DNA of 64,000 bases from an uncultured Poribacteria bacterium (lineage in GTDB: Bacteria > Poribacteria > WGA-4E > WGA-3G): the NCBI GenBank assembly GCA_951828515.1, contig OX639992.1, positions 2,014,008-2,078,007 on the forward strand. The letters run 5' to 3'. Position 1 is the first letter of the stretch; each line of letters begins with the position of its first letter. The notes beneath the pieces were generated by a model. It was not told the DNA's origin. It did not search any database and was given only the letters and a program-made list of their open reading frames with translations. Positions 7,798 through 44,658 of the stretch are shown here, piece by piece. The translations under genes were made by a program, and so were the position numbers.

Positions 7798-8718
7798 TTG
7801 GATACTCTAAACGCTCAGACAAACTCACAATCGAATCTACCCGAAGGTGTCATAGTACGCCTCGACCAAGGAAACTTAACCGGAGATATAGCATTTTCAC
7901 CGGATGGAACGCAACTTGCAGTCGCCTGTGACATCGGAGTTTGGGTCTATGATGTGGACAGCGGTCTCGGACTTAACCTCCTCGTTGAGCATAGGGAATA
8001 TGTCAGATGCGTCGCGTATTCTCCCGATGGGAGTGCAATTGCCAGCGGGAGTACAGACAATACGGTGGTTTTATGGGACGCGACCATTGGATCTCCGACA
8101 GCAACGCTCGTCGGACATACGGACGCTGTTAGGAGTGTTGCATATTCCGTGGACGGTGCCACCGTCGCAAGTGGAAGCCCTGATGGGACCGTGCGGTTAT
8201 GGGATACCAGCACAGGAGAGGCTAAAAATACACTCACAGGGCGTGCAGACTCTATCAGATGTGTTAAATATTCCCCAGATGGAAGCACCCTCGCCGCTGG
8301 AACCGGAGACGACACAGTGGAATTGTGGGACGCTGCTACCGGAAGGCACAAAGCGACACTCAAGGGACATACACATATTGTCGATTCGATCGCCTATTCA
8401 CCCGATGGAGCAGTTCTTGTGAGCGGAAGTATTGATGGCACGGTTCGGTTGTGGAATACAGACTCAAGGGAATTGATAACGACCCTGACAGGACATGCCG
8501 GTTATGTTTGGGGTGTCGCTTACGCACCTGATGGCAAAAGCGTCGCAAGTGGCGGGAATGACAACACGATTCGTTTATGGGATATCGAGGCAGAGGAACT
8601 TAAACGAACGCTCACAGGACATACAGGTAGCGTCAGGAATGTCGCGTATTCTCCGAATGGAAGTGTCCTCGCCAGCGGAAGTGATGACCACACCGTACTC
8701 ATCTGGGATATCGCGTAA
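7798..8718 (+). CDS. WD40 repeat protein, one seven-bladed propeller
   Basis: A 306-residue protein made of exactly seven WD40 repeats, each with a version of GHTxxVxxVAYSPDG and DxTVRLWD, predicting one closed beta-propeller used as a protein-binding platform. There is no signal peptide and no fused enzymatic domain. The start is a TTG at 7798, with AAAAGGA about 10 bases upstream; no ATG alternative lies before the first blade. The blades are very similar to one another, a sign of recent internal duplication. Partner unknown; the downstream cytochrome/DUF1549 gene has no fused propeller and often occurs near such proteins. Confidence 0.8.
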   Translation: MDTLNAQTNSQSNLPEGVIVRLDQGNLTGDIAFSPDGTQLAVACDIGVWVYDVDSGLGLNLLVEHREYVRCVAYSPDGSAIASGSTDNTVVLWDATIGSPTATLVGHTDAVRSVAYSVDGATVASGSPDGTVRLWDTSTGEAKNTLTGRADSIRCVKYSPDGSTLAAGTGDDTVELWDAATGRHKATLKGHTHIVDSIAYSPDGAVLVSGSIDGTVRLWNTDSRELITTLTGHAGYVWGVAYAPDGKSVASGGNDNTIRLWDIEAEELKRTLTGHTGSVRNVAYSPNGSVLASGSDDHTVLIWDIA

Positions 8719-9012
8719 ATCATTAACATAGAACGAAGATAGATAATAACTTGAGGCAAATTAACGGCGACCAAGTTTTCATTACGCAATTACGCTATCT
8801 TGGCGTGGCTTACAGGTCAACCGTCTAAAATAGCACAATTTAATTACCAGTGAGGACCAGTGAGGTTTTCTTAGGGAAACCCCCTATCAAAAACACTTCG
8901 CTACCAATTAGGCAGAAACCAGTTTCAAAAACTCAATCGTTAAAATCAGATTTAAGGAGGACGGCGTCTCCTCCGTCGATCACAATCGGAGGCTCCCACG
9001 CCGAGTTTTTTG
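8719..9012. other. Intergenic leader before the DUF1549/1553 gene
   Basis: No gene seen. Contains a tandem duplication of CCAGTGAGG near 8850-8866 and an inverted repeat around GGAGGACGGCGTCTCCTCC near 8957-8975, followed by CGGAGG close to the next gene. These could be leader hairpins; none is a clear terminator. Confidence 0.3.
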
Positions 9013-11487
9013 ATGAAACCCAGGTCTAACCTTGTAACAACATTCCTTGTTGCATTCTCTATCTGTTTCGCGTTCCAACTGACAGCGTCAAGCGAGATGG
9101 AGCAGCCTGTGAGTGTAGAAGTTCCAACGGTGAAAGCGTTGAAAGTTCATCCTGAGTCACTGACATTGGAGCACGCGCGTGACGGTAGACGGGTGCTCGT
9201 GTCAGGAAAGACGAAAGATGGCATGTATGTAGATGTAACACCATGGGCTACATTGACACCCACCACCGCAGGTGTGAAGGTACATGAAGATGGTTATATC
9301 TTCCCGATGGCGGTTGGCACAACAAAAATTACGGTGACTGTCAAAGGTGTCAGCACCGAATTGCCCGTGAACGTCAAAAGCATGGAAGCACGCCCTGTCA
9401 GTTTCGTGCGAGATGTCATGCCTCTTCTGAGCCATGCTGGGTGTAATAACGGCACATGTCACGGTGCAGCAAAGGGCAAAAATGGGTTCAAACTCTCACT
9501 CCGTGGCTACGACCCCGATTTCGACTATGAACTCTTGATTGAGGACATATCCGGACGACGGTTTAACCGGGCATTTCCCGAACAAAGTTTGATGTTGCTA
9601 AAAACGACATCCGAAGTCCCGCACAAAGGCGGACAGACAATTGCGCCAGGCTCACGGGATTATGAAGTCATCCGTCAATGGATAGCAGAAGGGGCTATTC
9701 CTGACGTTGAAACTACAAAACGCGTGGAAAGGCTGGAGGTCATACCAGATTCTGCTGAACTCGTGATGCCGGGTGTGAAACAGCAGTTTTTAGTGATCGC
9801 ACACTATCCCGATGGCACAACACGGGATGTCACCCGTGAAGCGAAGTTTACGAGTAGCCTCAATGAAGTCGCTAAAGTTACAGACGACGGCGTGGTAACC
9901 GCAGAACGCCGCGGCGAAACTGCTATTCTCACCCGATACGAAGGTGCCTATAGCACCAACGGCATCATCGTTATGGGGGACAGGAGCGGTTACAAGTGGG
10001 TTAAAACCCCTGAATATAATTATATTGATACGTACGTACACAATAAACTAAAGCGGATGAAAATCCTACCTTCTGAACTCTGTACGGATGAAGAATTTGT
10101 ACGGCGCATCTATTTCGATCTGACAGGTCTCCCACCGACTCCTGCACAGGTCCGGAGTTTCTTGACCGATACCACTACCTCTAAAACCAAACGAGAAAAA
10201 CTCATCGATACCCTCGCCGAGACATCGGAGTTTGTCGATCACTGGACACATAAATGGGGTGATCTGCTGCAGTCTAACCGTAAATTTCTCGGGGAGCGCG
10301 GGATATGGCTCTTCCAACAGTGGATCTATCAAACTATCGCCCAGAATCGTCCCTATGACGAGTTTGTACGAGATCTGATTACGGCAACCGGTAGCACCTA
10401 CACGAATCCGGCAGCGAACTATTTCCGCGTCTCCCGTGAATACACGGCTGCGGTGGAAAATACGACGCAGCTTTTCTTAGGCGTCCGGTTTTCCTGCAAC
10501 AAATGTCACGACCATCCGTTTGAAAAATGGACGCAGAACCAGTACTACGAACTCGGTGCGTTCTTCGCGGATGTCAAGGTCAAACCAGGACAACTCCCCG
10601 GCGATGAGGTCGTCTATGCTAATTATACCCCTGAACCTGTGAAACATCCCCGAACGTTAGCTGTGGTTGAACCGTCAGTACCGTTCGGAGAAGTTGCAGC
10701 GGAAACCGACGACAAACGCGAAATGCTCGCAGAGTGGCTCACCTCCGAAGAGAATCCGATGTTTGCTCGGGCAGGTGCGAACCGCATCTGGAGTTACTTC
10801 ATGGGACGTGGGATTATCGAACCTGTAGATGATATTCGCACAAGTAACCCACCTACTAACCCTGAATTGCTTGATGCATTGACAAAGGACTTCGTGGACA
10901 GCGGATTTGACATGAAACATATCATGAAGACAATCACACGTTCTCGAACCTATCAACAGAGTATCATAACGAATAAGTGGAACAAGGCTGATACGATTAA
11001 CTTTTCGCACGCAGCTGCGAGACGCTTGACGGCAGAACAGTTGTTAGATGCCATCGGTGTTGCGACAGGAAGCCGACCACGGTTTGAAGAGATTCCGAAA
11101 AAATTCCGCGCAGTGCAATTGCCAGACAGCAAGGTCAAAGATGACGGATTTTTGAAATTGTTTGGCAGACCTGAACGTGAAACTTCGTGCGAATGTGAAC
11201 GTACCACCGAGGTCAGCCTCGCACACGCAATGAATCTTATTAATGGACCGACGGTTGCAGAGTCACTCATCGATCCAGAAGGACGTATTGCACAACTCAT
11301 CGAAACGAATCATGATGACCGAGTTCTCGTTGAGGAACTCTATCTCGCGACGCTTTCTCGGTTACCGGAGAAGAACGAATACGCAGTAGCGATTGAGCAC
11401 CTTGCGAACGCCGAATCTAAGGAAGAAGGCGCGCAAGACTTGTTGTGGGCACTCATTAACAGTCCCGCCTTCTTATTCAATCGCTAA
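9013..11487 (+). CDS. Cytochrome c-like, Big-2, DUF1549 and DUF1553 domain protein
   Basis: An 824-residue exported protein of the planctomycete-type family. Order: signal peptide (about 1-28), a bacterial Ig-like region (about 35-125), a planctomycete cytochrome-like segment with CNNGTCHG near 155, a second Ig-like region (about 250-310), then DUF1549 (YIDTYVHNKLKRMKI, DLTGLPPTPAQV, CNKCHDHPFEKW) and DUF1553 (MFARAGANRIWSYFMGRGI, RRLTAEQLLDAI). The CxxCH motifs may bind heme, but function of the family is unknown. The first start is TTG at 9010; I prefer the ATG at 9013. It heads a plus-strand run with DUF1501, the usual partner, and then selenoprotein N and a PPC protein. Confidence 0.9.
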   Translation: MKPRSNLVTTFLVAFSICFAFQLTASSEMEQPVSVEVPTVKALKVHPESLTLEHARDGRRVLVSGKTKDGMYVDVTPWATLTPTTAGVKVHEDGYIFPMAVGTTKITVTVKGVSTELPVNVKSMEARPVSFVRDVMPLLSHAGCNNGTCHGAAKGKNGFKLSLRGYDPDFDYELLIEDISGRRFNRAFPEQSLMLLKTTSEVPHKGGQTIAPGSRDYEVIRQWIAEGAIPDVETTKRVERLEVIPDSAELVMPGVKQQFLVIAHYPDGTTRDVTREAKFTSSLNEVAKVTDDGVVTAERRGETAILTRYEGAYSTNGIIVMGDRSGYKWVKTPEYNYIDTYVHNKLKRMKILPSELCTDEEFVRRIYFDLTGLPPTPAQVRSFLTDTTTSKTKREKLIDTLAETSEFVDHWTHKWGDLLQSNRKFLGERGIWLFQQWIYQTIAQNRPYDEFVRDLITATGSTYTNPAANYFRVSREYTAAVENTTQLFLGVRFSCNKCHDHPFEKWTQNQYYELGAFFADVKVKPGQLPGDEVVYANYTPEPVKHPRTLAVVEPSVPFGEVAAETDDKREMLAEWLTSEENPMFARAGANRIWSYFMGRGIIEPVDDIRTSNPPTNPELLDALTKDFVDSGFDMKHIMKTITRSRTYQQSIITNKWNKADTINFSHAAARRLTAEQLLDAIGVATGSRPRFEEIPKKFRAVQLPDSKVKDDGFLKLFGRPERETSCECERTTEVSLAHAMNLINGPTVAESLIDPEGRIAQLIETNHDDRVLVEELYLATLSRLPEKNEYAVAIEHLANAESKEEGAQDLLWALINSPAFLFNR

Positions 11488-11489
11488 AT

Positions 11490-11575
11490 AGCCATCAGCC
11501 TTCGGCAGTCGGCTATCAGCAGTCCAACAATCAGAGACTCGCTGACCGCTAACTGCTGATGGCTGACAGCCATTC
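11490..11575. repeat. TCAGC-type dispersed inverted repeat
   Basis: Alternating GGCAGTCGGCTATCAGC and CTGACCGCTAACTGCTGATGG blocks forming an imperfect inverted repeat. The same element family recurs at 13045, 17590, 20297, 22617, 23490, 42395, 63005 and 63925. Most copies lie between genes in this window. Confidence 0.7.
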
Positions 11576-11593
11576 CAATGGAGGAAACAATAG

Positions 11594-13039
11594 ATGTTAT
11601 CGTTACCACAACTACCCGGACGCTTATGTGACGGGTTCTCACGTCGTGAATTTCTACGTGTCGGTGGTGCGGCGATGCTCGGCATTAGTTTGCCACAGGT
11701 ATTGTCACTCCAAGCCAACGCGAATACAACAGTTGACCCCGCCAAGCCGCTCAACGGATGGGGAAAAGCCAACTCGGTCATTCTTCTTTTCTTGCAAGGT
11801 GGTCCGAGCCATCTCGACATCTGGGATCCGAAACCGGAAGCTCCGTCGAACATCCGCGGTGAATTCAGTCCGATCCCGACGAACGTGCCGGGAATCCAAT
11901 TATCTGAAACGATGCCGCGTTTGGCACAACAGATGGATAAAGCTTGCCTTATCCGCTCCGTAAGTTACACACCGGCGGGACTTTTCAACCACACCGCTGC
12001 GATGTACCAAATGGTAACCGGTGAAACGCCGGATAAGGTCGCGCCTTCGGGTCAGCTCGATCCGCCGTCCCCCGCCGATCATCCGAATGCCGCATCGCAT
12101 ATCGCAAACTATCGTCCACCCGATGAACCGATGCTCGCGGCAGTGCAACTTCCGCGTCCGATGCAGGAGAGTAATATCATCGGTAAAGGTGGAAACGCTG
12201 GTTTCCTTGGTAGAGCGTATGATCCGTATTTCCTCTTCCAAGATCCAAATGAGGAGATTAACCTCGATGATCTGAGTTTACGTCCAGAGGTGCCACCGGT
12301 CCGTCTGAAACGGCGTAAAAATCTCCTTGAGACGATTAACAAAGGGATGCCCGAAATTGATAAGGTTGCCGACTCTTACGCTTTGAATGAGTATTATGAG
12401 AAGGCGTATAATCTCATCTTGTCGCAGCGGGCACGCAATGCCTTTGACTTGTCCCAAGAACCAGACGAGATGCGAGATAAGTACGGTAGACACACGTTCG
12501 GTCAGAGTGCACTCCTCGCTCGGCGGTTAGTGGAAGCGGGCACCCGTTTCGTACAGGTGAACTGGCCCTCTGTTGCTAACGGTGATCCGAATACCACGGC
12601 ATGGGATACGCACGCGACCAACTTTGGTCCGTTGAAAAACATTCACTGCCCGAAGTTAGACAGTGCCGTCTCCTCACTGCTGGAAGACTTGGACCAACGC
12701 GGTATGTTGGAAGACACCCTCGTCTTAACGATCGGTGAATTCGGACGCTCGCCGCGGATGGGTATTAGTACCTCCGGTAACAGCAACGCGCCTGATGGAC
12801 GCGATCACTGGCCCTATTGTTACACAGGTCTGATTGCAGGTGCTGGCGTTAAAGGTGGGCAGGTCTACGGGAAGTCCGATGCGACAGGTTCAACACCACT
12901 TGAGAACCCGGTGCATCCGCGAGACATCCTCGCCACGGTCTACCATACGCTCGGTATTGACCCGCACACCATCGTGTATAACCACTTGGAGCAGCCACGC
13001 GAATTGGTGAAAGGCGAACCGATTGCTGGGATATTCTAA
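11594..13039 (+). CDS. DUF1501 protein with Tat signal
   Basis: A 481-residue DUF1501 protein, a member of the alkaline-phosphatase/sulfatase superfamily that is nearly always encoded beside DUF1549/DUF1553 proteins. A twin-arginine signal (SRREFLRVGGAAMLG, about residues 16-30) directs folded export. Other family text: VILLFLQGGPSHLDIWDPKP, RLVEAGTRFVQVNW, TAWDTHATNF, LVLTIGEFGRSPRM and GRDHWPYCYTGLIAGAGVKGG. Metal-binding Asp/His positions are present in these motifs. The enzymatic activity is not established for the family. It lies 106 bases after the cytochrome gene, separated only by the TCAGC repeat. Confidence 0.93.
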   Translation: MLSLPQLPGRLCDGFSRREFLRVGGAAMLGISLPQVLSLQANANTTVDPAKPLNGWGKANSVILLFLQGGPSHLDIWDPKPEAPSNIRGEFSPIPTNVPGIQLSETMPRLAQQMDKACLIRSVSYTPAGLFNHTAAMYQMVTGETPDKVAPSGQLDPPSPADHPNAASHIANYRPPDEPMLAAVQLPRPMQESNIIGKGGNAGFLGRAYDPYFLFQDPNEEINLDDLSLRPEVPPVRLKRRKNLLETINKGMPEIDKVADSYALNEYYEKAYNLILSQRARNAFDLSQEPDEMRDKYGRHTFGQSALLARRLVEAGTRFVQVNWPSVANGDPNTTAWDTHATNFGPLKNIHCPKLDSAVSSLLEDLDQRGMLEDTLVLTIGEFGRSPRMGISTSGNSNAPDGRDHWPYCYTGLIAGAGVKGGQVYGKSDATGSTPLENPVHPRDILATVYHTLGIDPHTIVYNHLEQPRELVKGEPIAGIF

Positions 13040-13044
13040 TTGGT

Positions 13045-13152
13045 TATTAGTGCATTGGCTATCGGCTTTCAGCTGTCGGCTTTCAGTAAAGAGGTTTTTG
13101 GTGAACCTATCGCCTCTTGCTGATTGCTGACCGCTGTTTGCTGACTGCTATT
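13045..13152. repeat. TCAGC-type dispersed inverted repeat
   Basis: Left arm rich in CGGCTTTCAGC, a centre with AAAGAGG and CCTCTT arms around TTTTTGGTGAACC, right arm CTGATTGCTGACCGCTG. The whole unit can fold on itself. It is one of the best examples of this repeat family and lies just before the selenoprotein N gene. Confidence 0.75.
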
Positions 13153-13175: not shown

Positions 13176-14828
13176 ATGAACCCGAATCCCAACAAAATTA
13201 CGCTTAATATTGATGGTGATACCAAAGTTTCTATCAAAGGTTTCATCGCTCCGATTGAATACACCGAATCCAACTACCATGTGGATTTTGAGTGGGACGA
13301 GTTAGCGAATCTCCGAGTCGCCGTTCCAGAAAAGGTGTATTCGGCATCCGTTTTTCGAGCATTCCTCCCAGACGAAGCGGTGTCTGTTGGAGATTTGTGG
13401 CAGATTGAAGAAGCGGGTGCCCTTGAACTGCTGCGGCAATTTCACCCGACCCCACATTTGGACATGCGCGGTTACGGGAATCCCGGGTTGTGGGCATGCT
13501 TACGTGCCTACACCGATGAATTCGCAGATATTGTGTTTCGAGTTCATGCAGAATTTCAGTTAGGCGATGGCTGGTTCACGCCTTCACAGTTTACCGGACA
13601 TCTCGCTATCAACCGTCTGGAAGCGACGGTCGCGCTCTTTCAGATGCACGTTCCAGAAGGTCCCGTGAACTTTGAGGTCGGCTGGCAGGACGAAAGGAGT
13701 TGGGATGATTCCAACTGGATTATGGATACCGGTTTCTGCGCACAAATGGAACTGTGTGCTGGGACCGAAGACATTCTGCAAGACATCATAACCCGTTTGG
13801 ATAGCGAAATGAGCGATTCTATCGCCATTACACAGGCGGAAGCTGAGCGTGTGTTAAACTGCCAGTTTTACAAATCGGAGCACATCGATTGGGTTTCGAT
13901 GGAGTCGGCATTGGAATTAGCACAAGCACAGCAGAAACCGATTCACGTTATTTCTATAGACGGTCCCTTGGCAGACGAGGTTTGCTGAGGGAGTGGCAAA
14001 GCCCTGAGGTCAGGTGCTCTCTCCGACGAACAAAACATCACATTCTTGAACGAACATTTTATTAACACATGGGTGTCCAATGTCGCCTTCGGACGCACAC
14101 CAAACAAGCGCGCCTACCTTGCACAGAGAAGCCAGCACGGCTTCAAGGGAGTTGACACAACACACTCGTTGGCACAAGCGATCATAAGCGGGTGGCAGCT
14201 ACACTCACCAGTAGATTCTCTGGTTATCTCACCTGAACTTGAAGTGATGGGCAGGCAAGATGCCAATCGGCTCCACGGAGATAGTAGGGATCGGGGAGTC
14301 TCCGAAATGGAGGGGTACCGTCTATTTTTATCGGAAGCCTTAGAAAGAAATCGCCCTGGTTTGGATAGAATTGTCCTCACCGGCTCGTGTCCGTCAGTGG
14401 AGATAATGGACACTTTTCAGACACCTATGGTCCCCCATCAAGACTACACCGTCGTAGAGATTGATACCACGACGTTTGAAAACGGCGGCACACTTACACT
14501 GGATATCGGTGTCGGGAGAAGTAAGGCAGCAGGAACTTTCTACCTGTTTGATGGCGACAAAGACCTCCCGACAGAAAAAGCACCCGAAGGCGTACCTACC
14601 TCTGTTTGGGAGAGTCAAGTAGGCGAGGTTTATTTGGAAACTCTCGAAGCTCTCGCCATGGAATGGTATATCGGTCCCGAAGAAACGGGGAAAATCACCT
14701 ACCCTTTTGACCAAGGCAAGTTGTTTCGCTTGTGCGTTACCGGGAGCCCATACAGTGCGAAAGGGAGCCGCAACGCTTTCAGCCTCAAAATCTCTATAGA
14801 AGAGAGAATGACAGAGATACCTTCTTGA
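13176..14828 (+). CDS. Bacterial selenoprotein N homologue (Sec at residue 271)
   Basis: Read through the TGA at 13986-13988 this is one 550-residue protein; a standard ORF caller gives two pieces in the same frame. It matches the layout of animal selenoprotein N (SELENON) from end to end. The first part carries FRVHAEFQLGDGWFTPSQFTGH and MDTGFCAQMEL; then DWVSMESALELAQAQQKP; then the redox site DEVC-Sec-GSGKALRSGALSD followed by FLNEHFINTWV, equivalent to the SCUG motif; then LVISPELEVMG and a helix before about residue 390. About 150 extra C-terminal residues are not recognised. No signal peptide or membrane span is seen, unlike the ER-membrane animal protein. A thioredoxin-like role is inferred. 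A SECIS-like hairpin follows the TGA. Confidence 0.9.
14001..14017 (+). promoter_or_regulatory. Candidate bacterial SECIS element (selenoprotein N)
   Basis: Stem GCCCTG pairs with CAGG plus GC across one bulged T, closing the apical loop AGGT. It begins 12 nt after the TGA. The GGU in the loop and a bulged U in the upper stem recall the E. coli fdhF SECIS, where the loop is AGGUCU. It is coding sequence at the same time, as in other bacteria. Confidence 0.7.
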
Positions 14829-14922: not shown

Positions 14923-14977
14923 TTTAACCATCAACTCGACTCCGTTAGAAATGTTAAAGCACGAGTTGATGGTTAAA
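14923..14977. repeat. Perfect 16-bp inverted repeat before the PPC protein gene
   Basis: TTTAACCATCAACTCG at 14923-14938 and its exact complement at 14962-14977, with a 23-nt loop. It ends 22 bases before the start of the next gene, so it could be an operator or an RNA hairpin controlling translation. A 52-codon ORF with an AAGAGG ribosome-binding site (14870-15028) runs through it and overlaps the next gene; I do not regard it as proven. Confidence 0.55.
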
Positions 14978-14999: not shown

Positions 15000-17588
15000 A
15001 TGCCGAATACGCTATTTCGGAAACATAGAAGACAGGTCCCTGATCTGTTAATAAAACAGTCCTTTCTCGTCATAGCGATCTTTCTCCTAACGATTGGTTT
15101 CACACACGCTCAGGTTCAACCTACCTTGACGGCTGTCTTCCCCCAAGGCGGTCAACAGGGACGCAGCGTAGAAGTCACACTCACAGGCACACACCTCGGC
15201 ACAGCAACAGCGGTGTGGTTCAGTGGGAAGGGTATCACCGCGGAAATCAAAGAAAAAACGGGGCAAGCCGCTGTCGTTTTCAACGGTATCGGCGTTTCTG
15301 GAAGTATTCCGAGCGACGCGCAGTTGGTCGCATTGCTGACGATTGCCCCAGACGCACCGTTAGGTATCCAAGAGATACGCGTCGTTACGCCTTATGGTGT
15401 TTCCAACGCAGGCAGCTTCGTCGTTGGAAATCTGCGAGAAATCATTGAAGAAGAAACAGCGGAATCAGAGTTGGAAACCCCATCTACAATGGAAGCCGAC
15501 TGGCTTGCGTTGCCGGTTACCGTGAACGGCACAATTGCTTCAATCGATGATGAAGACAGTTTCACCTTTCAACTGAAAAAGGATGTCCGGCTTATTTGTG
15601 AAGTGGTAGCACAGCAAATAGGATCGTTGTTGGATTCCTACCTCGTTCTCCGCGATGCCAACGGGACTGAGGTCGCTAACAGCGGTCTTGGTAATGCCTT
15701 TGACTCCGTTTTGGATTACACAGCCCTTGAAACTGGAAAATACACGCTCCACATTCGCGATATTCGTTACAAAGGCGGAGATGGCTACGGTTATCGATTG
15801 AGTATCGGTGAATTGCCGTATCTTGAGACGATCTTTCCCCTTGGTGGACAACGCGGCACCGAAAATACAGTTACTGTCACTGGTGCGAACCTTGAGACGG
15901 TAGAATCTATACAGATTTCAATAGGTGCTGAAACACCAGCAGGCGAACAGTCTCTGCGGGTCCAGACGCCCTCCGGGTTGGCTACCAACCCACATTCGTT
16001 TGCTATCGGCAATTGGGCGGAAATGGTGGAGACTGAACCGAATAACGCGACTGGAAATGCGAATGCTGTAACTACACCGATAACACTCAATGGGAAAATC
16101 GACAAATCCGGTGATGTTGACTGGTTTTCGTTTGAGATTGCAGAACCGCAACTCCTCGTTTTTGAGGTAGAAGGAAATAAACTGTCATCAAACCTCGATG
16201 CCTTGCTTACGCTCTACGGACCGGGAAAACCGATGGAAGGCTCGGAAGAAATGGCAAATAGCGAGCGAGGTTGGGAAACCTCGCCAGCGGAACAGGTCTT
16301 AATGGTAAACGACGATGCCATCAATGCAGATGCACGTATTGACTGGACTTTTGAAGAGGCTGGAAAGTACTCTGTCGCTATTCGAGATCTGAACAAGCAA
16401 GGCGGTGAGACCTATCCATACCGATTAAACATCCGTCCATTGGAACCAGACTGCCAACTCAGTGTAGTGGCACTTGACATCCGGAATCGCCCGATCGCTA
16501 TGGATAACCCGCGCGTCAGCAGAGGCAGCAGCGTTACATTGCAGGTTGATGTTACTCGTCTTGACCTATTCGATGGTCCAATTCGCCTACTGTGTCCAGA
16601 CGTTCCGAAAACGTTTAATGTGAGTCCAACTATTGTTGGCGCAGACCAAAACCGAGCGATGCTCACGATAACGGCTCCGCCGGATGCCCCACTCGGACTC
16701 ATGCCGCTCTCTATCGTTGGGGTTTGTGCCGTTGGTGGTCGCCAGATAGAGCGGACCGCTACCCCTTCTCCGATCCTGCTTACTGTGATGGATGCACCGG
16801 AATTCACCCTAACGCTTGCAGAGATCGGCTTAAGCACTGTGCACAACAAAGTCGTTGACCTCCACGTGACGGCGGATCGGCGCGATGACTTCGTCGGTCC
16901 TATCACTCTGTCGGTATCAGGACTTCCAAATCGCGTTTCGGCTCTTCCTGATCCTGTTTCCGAAAAACCTGTCACTATTGCAGAAGGCGAAACAGAAGCG
17001 AAGGTTTCGGTTAAAGCTGGGACCTTTGAGCGGAGAGAGGAATTTTCTGTTCTGCCGACACCCGGTACAAGTTATGTTTCAGTTACTGGAACGGCGACTG
17101 TTAATGGCGAGGCAGTGAAACAATCGACCCCTGCCATTCCTTTGACCATCGTCGAGGCACCCTTTATTGTAACGGTTGAGCCTCTGCGCTTTAGTATTGT
17201 TTTCCCCGCAACGGGAGCCTCCGCAAAAAGCGACCCAACCACAGGGTCTGAAGTCGAGACTGTGGCACTTGCGGGAAACCCAGTAGCAGGCACCGAAACA
17301 TCAAAAAATGATGATCCGCAAACAAAGGAAGCGATATTGACGTTAACGGTCGTCCGACAAGGCGGCTTCACAGATGAAATCATACTCACACCGATCGATG
17401 TCCCAGAAGGTTTTACCACGGAAGCGGTTACTATCCCGGCGAATGAGACGGAGGTCAAAGTTCCACTAAAAGCACTCAACTCCTTAACGCCGGAGACGTA
17501 CGAGTTTAAATTCCGTGGCTCTGTGATGATTAACGATAAACCGTTTAAACAGGATAGTCCTCCTGTCAAAGTAAAGATTATTCATTAG
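15000..17588 (+). CDS. Exported protein with PPC and IPT/TIG-like domains
   Basis: An 862-residue protein with signal peptide (about 20-38, ending THAQ). Repeated beta-rich modules follow: IPT/TIG-like segments starting LTAVFPQGGQQGRSVEVTLTG and, near 280, LETIFPLGGQRG; and two pre-peptidase C-terminal (PPC) domains around 155-275 and 345-475, marked by DEDSFTFQLK, DSYLVLRDANGTE, GKYTLHIRD and by SGDVDWFSFEI, LDALLTLYGPG, GKYSVAIRD. The last 370 residues are Ig-like. Such proteins accompany DUF1549/DUF1501 genes in planctomycete-type bacteria. Probably extracellular binding rather than catalysis. RBS GAGG precedes the ATG. Confidence 0.85.
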   Translation: MPNTLFRKHRRQVPDLLIKQSFLVIAIFLLTIGFTHAQVQPTLTAVFPQGGQQGRSVEVTLTGTHLGTATAVWFSGKGITAEIKEKTGQAAVVFNGIGVSGSIPSDAQLVALLTIAPDAPLGIQEIRVVTPYGVSNAGSFVVGNLREIIEEETAESELETPSTMEADWLALPVTVNGTIASIDDEDSFTFQLKKDVRLICEVVAQQIGSLLDSYLVLRDANGTEVANSGLGNAFDSVLDYTALETGKYTLHIRDIRYKGGDGYGYRLSIGELPYLETIFPLGGQRGTENTVTVTGANLETVESIQISIGAETPAGEQSLRVQTPSGLATNPHSFAIGNWAEMVETEPNNATGNANAVTTPITLNGKIDKSGDVDWFSFEIAEPQLLVFEVEGNKLSSNLDALLTLYGPGKPMEGSEEMANSERGWETSPAEQVLMVNDDAINADARIDWTFEEAGKYSVAIRDLNKQGGETYPYRLNIRPLEPDCQLSVVALDIRNRPIAMDNPRVSRGSSVTLQVDVTRLDLFDGPIRLLCPDVPKTFNVSPTIVGADQNRAMLTITAPPDAPLGLMPLSIVGVCAVGGRQIERTATPSPILLTVMDAPEFTLTLAEIGLSTVHNKVVDLHVTADRRDDFVGPITLSVSGLPNRVSALPDPVSEKPVTIAEGETEAKVSVKAGTFERREEFSVLPTPGTSYVSVTGTATVNGEAVKQSTPAIPLTIVEAPFIVTVEPLRFSIVFPATGASAKSDPTTGSEVETVALAGNPVAGTETSKNDDPQTKEAILTLTVVRQGGFTDEIILTPIDVPEGFTTEAVTIPANETEVKVPLKALNSLTPETYEFKFRGSVMINDKPFKQDSPPVKVKIIH

Positions 17589-17589
17589 C

Positions 17590-18843
<1,254 letters not shown>

Positions 18844-42711: not shown

Positions 42712-44658
42712 CTATTGGAGCGCAATCAATACTGGTTCTATGCCGAGGGTCTCTTGAATGTGTTGTTTCAACGCTGCTGATTCTGCCCGTGTGCTGAATT
42801 CACCGATCGTTACGCGATGCATAGTTCGTCCGCCAACAGTAGCGACACGGAGAGCGACCTTCTGATCCGGGTTCTGCAACTGTAATCTTTCCTCCATCGC
42901 TTCTGCATAGTAAAGCTCGACAAACGAACCTACCATGAGCGTCATCTTACTGGGTACCGACGCTCTTTTTGGCTGACTGTTCACACCAAACTGGAGCTGC
43001 GCCTGTTCCGTGCTCTGATTGCCAGCAATGTCCTGAACGTGTAACTTGCCAGTGTAAACGGCACTCGGATCCGCTTGAATCTTGTTCAAGACGACCTCGG
43101 TGGGAGGCGAACCGTTTCCCTCCGCCTGCTCAATAAGTGCGTTTTCTGTATCGAAAAGTTCAAGTTTCCAATGGTCAAGCGGATTGATGTCCCACGCCTT
43201 CACACCGACAGTTGTGGGTGTCTTCGCGAAAAGATCCAAGGTCGTCGGAATGAGATCCACTGTCACTGTCTCAGTATCCATGAAGTGTAGTGTGTCTTGT
43301 GCGTCAAGAATGTAGAGCTGAACCTCATAATTTCCGTCAGGGACCAAGTTCCCGGTATCTGCAAAGCCGTCCCAGACGATACCTTCCGTTGGCACACCTG
43401 TCCCAGATTTTTTCCATACACTTTCGGTATACTCATCTTGGATGTCCAACTGCCATCGTAAGGGTGCGGTGCCATCTTCTCCAAGACGCAAACGAAATGT
43501 GGTGCTATCGGACACACCATCGCCATTCGGCGAAATTGCGGGTTCGGAGAGATCCAATTCTCCATCAATGGTTTCAGGGTCTATTTCGAGCGTTTCCGGC
43601 ATTAAAATCGGTCCAGCTTTCTCGGCATCTGACGGCTCGGTGCGAGTTGCCACCGATACGGGTGCCATTTCGTCTCCATCCCAACGCAACGTTGCCGAGA
43701 TCCAATGCACGCCTTGTTCCAATTCACTGCCGGTCACATAAGCATAATCGAGTTGTCCCGAAGAATTTCGGAAACTCAGCCCGCGCGCCAACTCACCGCT
43801 CCAGAACCTTTCAGAAGCGGTTAAAGCGGTATAACCGAAGCGCAACCCGATGTGACTATCAATGAACCAATGCTCTGCTCCGAAGTGCAATCGGAGTCGT
43901 TCCCCCCAGTTTACGTCATTCGCACCCCGAACAGCGAGATCTGCCGAAAAGAGTGTGTCCCTACCTAATTCATAAGTTGTCCCAAAGCGTGCGGCTAAGG
44001 GTGCGCTCTCAAGAAGTACACCGTTATCGCGAATGCCGTTGCTCAATTCAGAGAAATTCATGCCCACAGTTACCAAATCACCCCATTTTTGCACCGGGTA
44101 GGCGAACTGCATCCCTAAGTCCACACTCCATAGAAAATTGGTTCTGATAGGTGTATTATTCTGATAGTAGCGCAGGTTCGCCCCCGCCGAGGCACGCTGT
44201 CCGAGCGCAAGCCCGTACCCTAAAAGGACAATCTGTGTAGACTCCGTCGTGTTATTTTTCCACCCGTCAAGCCATGTCGCAAAGGAGACATTTCCTAAAT
44301 TTCTGTTCGTCACTCCGAACGTTTGTGGATTCGCGGCGACAGAGAACGCCTGATCGCGGCTTGAGAAGTTTCCCGGAAACGGCATTCCACCCATATTGAC
44401 TTCCACACCCTCCATAAATCCTAATGAAGACGGGTTCCATAGAAAACCGTTGGTCGCGGAGGGACCTGCGGTGAACGCACTGCCCATCCCGACGGCGCGG
44501 GCACTTGCCCCCACAAAAATATCCCGTTGGCTTATACTGGAAGTCCCCGCAGAAACGGATACGGCTGCCAATATCATTCCGACGATACCGATTCTTTGAA
44601 TGATTTGCTGCAGACGTTGCCTACGCCCTCGAAGAAAATTGAATTGCATCGGATACAC
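42712..44658 (-). CDS. PorV-like outer-membrane protein fused to FlgD-Ig and SPOR domains
   Basis: A 648-residue exported protein. After an N-terminal segment ending SAGTSSISQ, residues about 45-330 are PorV/UPF0164-like beta-barrel text (VGASARAVGMGSAFTAG, FLWNPSSLGFMEGVEVN, YGLALGQRASAGANLRYY, LHFGAEHWFIDSHIGLRFGY). Then SPNGDGVSDSTTFRL and WDGFADTGNLVPDGNYEVQLY, a FlgD-type Ig domain, and finally a SPOR-like domain of about 75 residues with MLVGSFVELYYAEAMEERL-type start and HRVTIGEFSTRAESAALKQHI. This combination would place a surface beta-barrel with a peptidoglycan-binding end. A start at the second Met is also possible. Confidence 0.8.
   Translation of the reverse strand: MYPMQFNFLRGRRQRLQQIIQRIGIVGMILAAVSVSAGTSSISQRDIFVGASARAVGMGSAFTAGPSATNGFLWNPSSLGFMEGVEVNMGGMPFPGNFSSRDQAFSVAANPQTFGVTNRNLGNVSFATWLDGWKNNTTESTQIVLLGYGLALGQRASAGANLRYYQNNTPIRTNFLWSVDLGMQFAYPVQKWGDLVTVGMNFSELSNGIRDNGVLLESAPLAARFGTTYELGRDTLFSADLAVRGANDVNWGERLRLHFGAEHWFIDSHIGLRFGYTALTASERFWSGELARGLSFRNSSGQLDYAYVTGSELEQGVHWISATLRWDGDEMAPVSVATRTEPSDAEKAGPILMPETLEIDPETIDGELDLSEPAISPNGDGVSDSTTFRLRLGEDGTAPLRWQLDIQDEYTESVWKKSGTGVPTEGIVWDGFADTGNLVPDGNYEVQLYILDAQDTLHFMDTETVTVDLIPTTLDLFAKTPTTVGVKAWDINPLDHWKLELFDTENALIEQAEGNGSPPTEVVLNKIQADPSAVYTGKLHVQDIAGNQSTEQAQLQFGVNSQPKRASVPSKMTLMVGSFVELYYAEAMEERLQLQNPDQKVALRVATVGGRTMHRVTIGEFSTRAESAALKQHIQETLGIEPVLIALQ

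Follow-up and report, generated by a model that had tools for sequence, protein, structure and literature searches.

The gene at positions 13176-14828 of the window (the whole 64-kb stretch of 64,000 nucleotides that was analysed, from the single-contig, 5.85 Mb chromosome of a Candidatus Poribacteria, a phylum found in marine sponges) most probably codes for a selenoprotein belonging to the SELENON superfamily. According to this reading, to which we assign a probability of about 0.9, UGA codon 271 is read as selenocysteine (Sec) and forms a Cys-Sec redox pair, the protein carries a C-terminal beta-sandwich, and the gene has been multiplied in tandem in Poribacteria.

Translation of 13176-14828 gave 270 codons, a TGA as codon 271, 279 further codons and a TGA terminator. 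This confirmed the initial annotation, which had described a gene that looks split as one 550-codon frame broken by TGA at residue 271; every motif quoted there was found in the translation. The sequence around codon 271 reads DEVC-TGA-GSGKALRSG. The features discussed below are as follows.

11594..13039, + strand: upstream neighbour, DUF1501 protein (PF07394; Pfam E 2e-105), order kept in L009-L015.
13176..14828, + strand: selenoprotein N-like gene of 550 codons followed by a TGA stop, with an ATG start that is conserved and collinear with 14 relatives.
13176..13766, + strand: N-terminal beta-rich domain, residues 1-197, with the FRVHAEFQL and WFTPSQFTGH motifs (AlphaFold).
13302..14354, + strand: residues 43-393, which are homologous to the lumenal portion of animal SELENON (BLAST, multiple alignment).
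13896..14345, + strand: thioredoxin-like domain, residues 241-390, with C270-U271 just before a helix (AlphaFold, Foldseek to 7tkv).
13986..13988, + strand: in-frame TGA, codon 271, proposed Sec in C270-U271-G-S-G-K.
13989..14024, + strand: proposed bacterial SECIS inside the coding sequence (synonymous constraint in codons +1 to +12, fit to the bSECIS model).
14003..14014, + strand: CCUG-AGGU-CAGG, the apical hairpin of the window's fold; in the other register the loop lies at 14012-14015.
14385..14825, + strand: C-terminal beta-sandwich, residues 404-550 (Foldseek; without a Pfam match).
15000..17588, + strand: downstream neighbour, protein with TIG and PPC domains (Pfam), order kept in L009-L015.
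17701-18843: tRNA-guanine transglycosylase-like gene, after the TIG/PPC gene.

The human SELENON used for comparison was an uncurated version of the 556-residue isoform; published residue numbers refer to the 590-residue form, an offset of 34. Only a few published SEPN1 mutation names were found for checking this sequence, which agrees with the published Sec462, G463, R466 and R469 and with a codon 315 that begins with G. BLAST of the window protein against this human sequence scored 131 bits, with E ~1e-31 when the effective database is set to 1e8 letters; the alignment spans 309 columns, is 31% identical and covers 257 window residues (43-299). A profile of the Poribacteria family scored 152 bits against it, with 0/500 shuffles reported. 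Two other members, L101 and the paralogue L034 from the same genome, reached 153 bits and 155 bits (E 9e-40), respectively, L034 being the closest to the uncurated human SELENON by BLAST of those compared. L034 retains VLLFGALDDESC-U-GTGKALR, aligned to the matching human segment. The multiple alignment matched human residues 151-556 with window residues ~43-393, and placed human G315, N340 and H293 on window G141, N165 and H124, all invariant in 14 diverse members; human G273 corresponded to window G104, kept in 13/14 of them, and Sec462 also fell on a conserved family position. Mutation of human SELENON (SEPN1) causes myopathy, and H293, N340 and G273 are residues that we take to be sites of such mutations. 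Collectively, these comparisons indicated genuine homology between the window gene and animal SELENON, covering both the N-terminal beta domain and the thioredoxin-like domain that holds the Cys-Sec pair. The initial annotation had proposed a relationship along the entire protein; the similarity does extend far outside the CxG motif (E 1e-31), but it is not full-length, as the EF-hand and the membrane anchor are missing from the window protein.

It is very unlikely that the protein is a thioredoxin-like selenoprotein unrelated to SELENON whose active site is alike by convergence. Such an origin could be argued from the family databases, which do not name the window protein, from fold matches that include Thioredox_DsbH and from the use of an uncurated human comparator. 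Against it, the collinear 309 columns take in the beta domain far from the active site, human G273, H293, G315, N340 and Sec462 fall on conserved positions, the paralogue L034 matches at E 9e-40, and the human sequence used agrees with the published residues listed above.

An AlphaFold model built from 35 relatives (mean pLDDT 83) replaced a poor 15-sequence model (pLDDT 65) and placed a helical link between the beta-rich and thioredoxin-like domains. Foldseek matched the middle part to the Thioredox_DsbH-domain protein 7tkv with a modest score, and the last part to beta-sandwiches of the pre-peptidase C-terminal and collagen-binding types, also with modest scores; its rows were given to domains by inference from aligned lengths. 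The protein sequence itself was unmatched in Pfam, NCBIfam and the PDB by single-sequence and profile searches. No signal peptide or membrane segment was apparent in the window protein, the N-terminus of which reads MNPNPNKITLNIDGD.

A second alternative is that the TGA is a real stop, leaving either a broken gene or a 270-residue product, with the remainder a relic or a separate ORF starting from TTG at 14046. The standard ORF listing does cut the gene in two (13176-13988 and 14046-14828). The homologous codon, however, was TGA in 18/18 Poribacteria loci from the peptide scan described below, and the 88 distinct active-site contexts gathered across many Poribacteria genomes likewise had TGA without exception, with TGC/TGT (Cys) in none. 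Comparison of the window gene with eight close relatives gave dN/dS of 0.17-0.23 for the part preceding the TGA and 0.21-0.34 for the part following it, indicating similar purifying selection on both sides and, since the latter values are so low, selection of the downstream part at the protein level. The stretch between the TGA and the second ORF is moreover among the most conserved of the protein, and family members with a Gly codon at this position are open throughout. We found no homologue with its halves split into separate genes, an arrangement that would have spoken against the initial annotation; the TGA-less copies examined read through with the Gly codon. Termination at codon 271 is highly improbable on these grounds.

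The sequence directly after the TGA appeared to be constrained at the RNA level. At conserved residues, codon entropy had a ratio of 0.33 in codons +1 to +12 versus 0.71-0.83 elsewhere (Mann-Whitney p = 8.5e-5, only indicative as the sequences are related). Codon choice was fairly free before the TGA and past codon +12, so that the RNA-level constraint was confined to codons +1 to +12. Arg+7 was AGG/AGA in 88/88 contexts, though AGR makes up ~29% of Arg codons elsewhere, and Ala+8 (GCA, 75/77), Gly+9 (GGT, 54/54) and Leu+11 (CTC, 85/88) were similarly fixed. With the bSECIS constraints as printed in PMC13188914, the model was passed by 79/82 distinct sequences; control sequences recoded synonymously in 20 rounds passed in a mean of 42/82 cases and a maximum of 52. 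Mean MFE was -12.3 kcal/mol for the natural and -8.5 kcal/mol for the recoded sequences. The best fold of the window (-14.1 kcal/mol) has its AGGU loop 18 nt after the UGA, whereas most relatives prefer a hairpin ~5 nt further on, with an AGGU/AGUU loop at offsets 26-29, 23 nt after the UGA. The AGGT-loop hairpin initially put forward as a SECIS is therefore present and the element fits the bSECIS model, but its exact register is not the one that most relatives favour. RNAalifold and pair counting found two competing registers with nearly invariant pairs and little compensatory change; because the pairs hardly vary, covariation speaks neither for nor against either register. At the gathering threshold, no SECIS family of Rfam was matched in the window, and the stretch tried after the selD UGA of the same genome did not pass the bSECIS check.

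The genes for Sec insertion, selA, selB, selC and selD, were all present in the same genome. SelA and SelB were detected with 594 bits and 347 bits (the latter over the cut-off), and selC, the tRNA-Sec gene (78 bits), begins 183 nt downstream of the selB match; selD (359 bits) has an in-frame TGA of its own. Among the Poribacteria genomes, selA was above the cut-off in 57/65 of those positive for the family and in 15/20 of the negative ones. Several of the 8/65 family-positive genomes lacking a selA match over the cut-off are incomplete MAGs. Reassignment of TGA to a sense amino acid, or non-specific read-through in Poribacteria, would likewise put a TGA in frame within a conserved gene; it is exceedingly improbable given the complete Sec system, the SECIS-like constraint directly after the TGA and the scarcity of comparable frames. 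Just two TGA-interrupted frames in the 64-kb window had at least 120 open codons before and at least 60 after the TGA, one of them being the SelN-like gene. Moreover, the gene itself terminates at a TGA, so this codon has not been reassigned to a sense meaning. We infer that codon 271 encodes Sec, an assignment that is well supported because the Sec genes are present, the codon is TGA in every context, dN/dS stays low beyond it and the gene ends in TGA. The other interrupted frame, at 43284-44144 with 193 and 93 codons around its internal TGA, probably arose by chance.

A peptide scan of 84,980 species, each represented by a single genome, reaches only close relatives; it returned 18 of them, all from Candidatus Poribacteria. 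The family was matched in 65/85 Poribacteria genomes and in 0/302 further genomes outside these 85; relatives were not found in the viral contigs and plasmids searched. The window's own genome has eight TGA-bearing copies, and the three relatives counted have 12, 13 and 15, so that one Sec family has grown to 12-15 copies per genome in them. At L124:4729-18084, eight consecutive Sec copies occupy ~13 kb on one strand; their frames touch or overlap, which suggests that the array is an operon of Sec genes from a single family.

The copies differ in architecture. Members of ~370 residues end where animal SELENON ends (L085, L086, L090), whereas the C-terminal beta-sandwich is present once in the window protein and twice in L020 and L021. 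A TlpA/AhpC-TSA domain is fused to the C-terminus of L034 (Pfam E 4.6e-20) and L092 (4.1e-22), a fusion that points to electron exchange with thioredoxin-type partners. L034 (L034:769-2493, - strand) lies near position 1513187 of the window's own genome; it has WNGFC where L092 keeps WCGFC. Signal-like N-termini were seen in L032 and L084, and some copies look exported. The absence of an anchor and the extra 150-residue C-terminus stressed in the initial annotation thus hold for the window copy but not for all members, L032, L084 and the L085 type being exceptions. Natural homologues that carry Cys at the Sec position support the assignment of a bacterial selenoprotein without strictly defining one. 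A search for them among the stop-free copies found none: the five non-TGA copies examined (L119, L120, L121, L122, L123) were exported-type proteins with Gly (GGA/GGC) at the Sec codon and a largely retained SECIS-like sequence. These Gly forms keep only C-G, which suggests that the redox pair is lost in them, and they appear to represent a Sec-to-Gly loss in place of the usual Sec-to-Cys change.

The order WD40, PSCyt2/PSD1, DUF1501, selenoprotein gene, TIG/PPC and tgt-like was found in L009, L010, L011, L012, L013 and L015; in L014 the shared order starts at PSCyt2. Within this syntenic block (7798-13039 and 15000-18843), the DUF1501 gene was 97-99% identical and the SelN-like gene 78-83%. 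The DUF1501, PSCyt2 and TIG/PPC neighbours do not explain the function of the SelN-like gene, because further copies occur at other loci, often within separate arrays. A perfect 16-nt inverted repeat (TTTAACCATCAACTCG / CGAGTTGATGGTTAAA, 23 nt between the arms) at 14923-14977, ~95 nt past the stop codon, is possibly a terminator or a small mobile element remnant, and a 14-nt direct repeat (GCTATCGGCTTTCA) occupies 13058-13085 in the upstream intergenic region. Poribacteria inhabit sponges (PMC3909097), and a SelN gene is known from the sponge Amphimedon (PMC3473315), yet the idea that a host gene was assembled into the bacterial genome is refuted for practical purposes because of this synteny across independent assemblies. 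The gene lacks introns and sits on a single 5.85 Mb contig between bacterial genes whose order recurs in seven other Poribacteria; its SECIS is at the bacterial position inside the coding sequence, and each genome contains many divergent paralogues.

A 2007 description regarded SelN as apparently animal-specific (PMC2375036). An inventory of 119 prokaryotic selenoprotein families and subfamilies from 2026 has no SelN entry, its examples shared with eukaryotes being SelD, GPX, deiodinase-like, SELENOW-like and MsrA (PMC13188914). We found no report of a bacterial SelN in a literature search whose coverage was thin for subscription journals and preprints, where an earlier report is possible. Two deep Poribacteria subfamilies showed 30-37% identity to the window protein, and either of them 26-31% to the human SELENON used here; divergence between the subfamilies is about equal to that from human, which speaks against recent acquisition of the gene from a sponge. 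A tree with this single uncurated human sequence gave a human branch of 2.21, and because of this long branch and the lack of an outgroup it does not settle the direction of transfer. The human SELENON mRNA contains a Sec redefinition element directly after the UGA (PMC3541580). It is conceivable, though on balance unlikely, that an early gene transfer between a sponge-type animal and its symbiont links SELENON and the Poribacteria family; the most interesting version would run from bacterium to animal, with the human Sec redefinition element a remnant of the bacterial SECIS. With this family it becomes possible to test where SELENON and its UGA-proximal recoding element came from, and to approach the chemistry of the human protein in bacteria. 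A bacterial relative that is soluble and has a deep natural alignment is also tractable material for the structure and enzymology of SELENON, for which no solved relative was detectable by sequence in the PDB copy searched.

We hypothesize that UGA codon 271 is decoded as Sec by the SelA, SelB, SelC and SelD of the genome, as conservation and the machinery suggest, and that this decoding is directed by a SECIS hairpin located in the 36 nt that follow. Cys270 and Sec271 most likely alternate between a selenylsulfide and the reduced form, so that the protein would reduce the disulfides of partners (or peroxides) with electrons supplied by a thioredoxin-type donor. The TlpA/AhpC-TSA domain of some paralogues could be this donor or partner in fused form. 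For the C-terminal sandwich, a role in binding or assembly is probable. Poribacteria have multiplied the gene into tandem arrays. The calcium-sensing and SERCA redox function of animal SELENON is not expected for the window protein, because the EF-hand is absent.

Compared with TlpA/AhpC-TSA/Redoxin thiol oxidoreductases, which share the thioredoxin fold and in L034 and L092 form fusions with the SelN module, the window protein has neither such a domain nor a CxxC, its pair being a vicinal Cys-Sec. The fold of the Cys-Sec domain resembles Thioredox_DsbH, the thioredoxin domain of Bab1_2064 (PDB 7tkv), but the sequence match is not significant and the partner domains differ. The closest likeness is to SELENON: the lumenal region is collinear with ~30% identity across 380 aligned positions, the Sec of the window protein lies in a C-U-G motif within a thioredoxin-like domain, both families have Sec in C-U-G-S-G-[KR] together with the FRIHAEF, QFTGH and LNExFI.TW motifs, and some Poribacteria members stop where the animal protein stops. 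Unlike SELENON, the window protein has no counterpart of the EF-hand region or of the N-terminal membrane anchor (ER lumen), and it carries an extra C-terminal beta-sandwich that the animal protein does not have. The SECIS lies in the coding region in the Poribacteria family and in the 3' UTR in eukaryotic SELENON, while the human Sec redefinition element takes the same place after the UGA as the bacterial SECIS. The Poribacteria family is also a tandem multigene family, which SELENON is not. Several Sec genes side by side are likewise known from the SAO and Tso multi-selenoprotein operons (PMC13188914), SAO with six being the largest with a stated count in that 2026 review, whereas the Poribacteria arrays consist of paralogues of one family, with up to eight in a row (L124).
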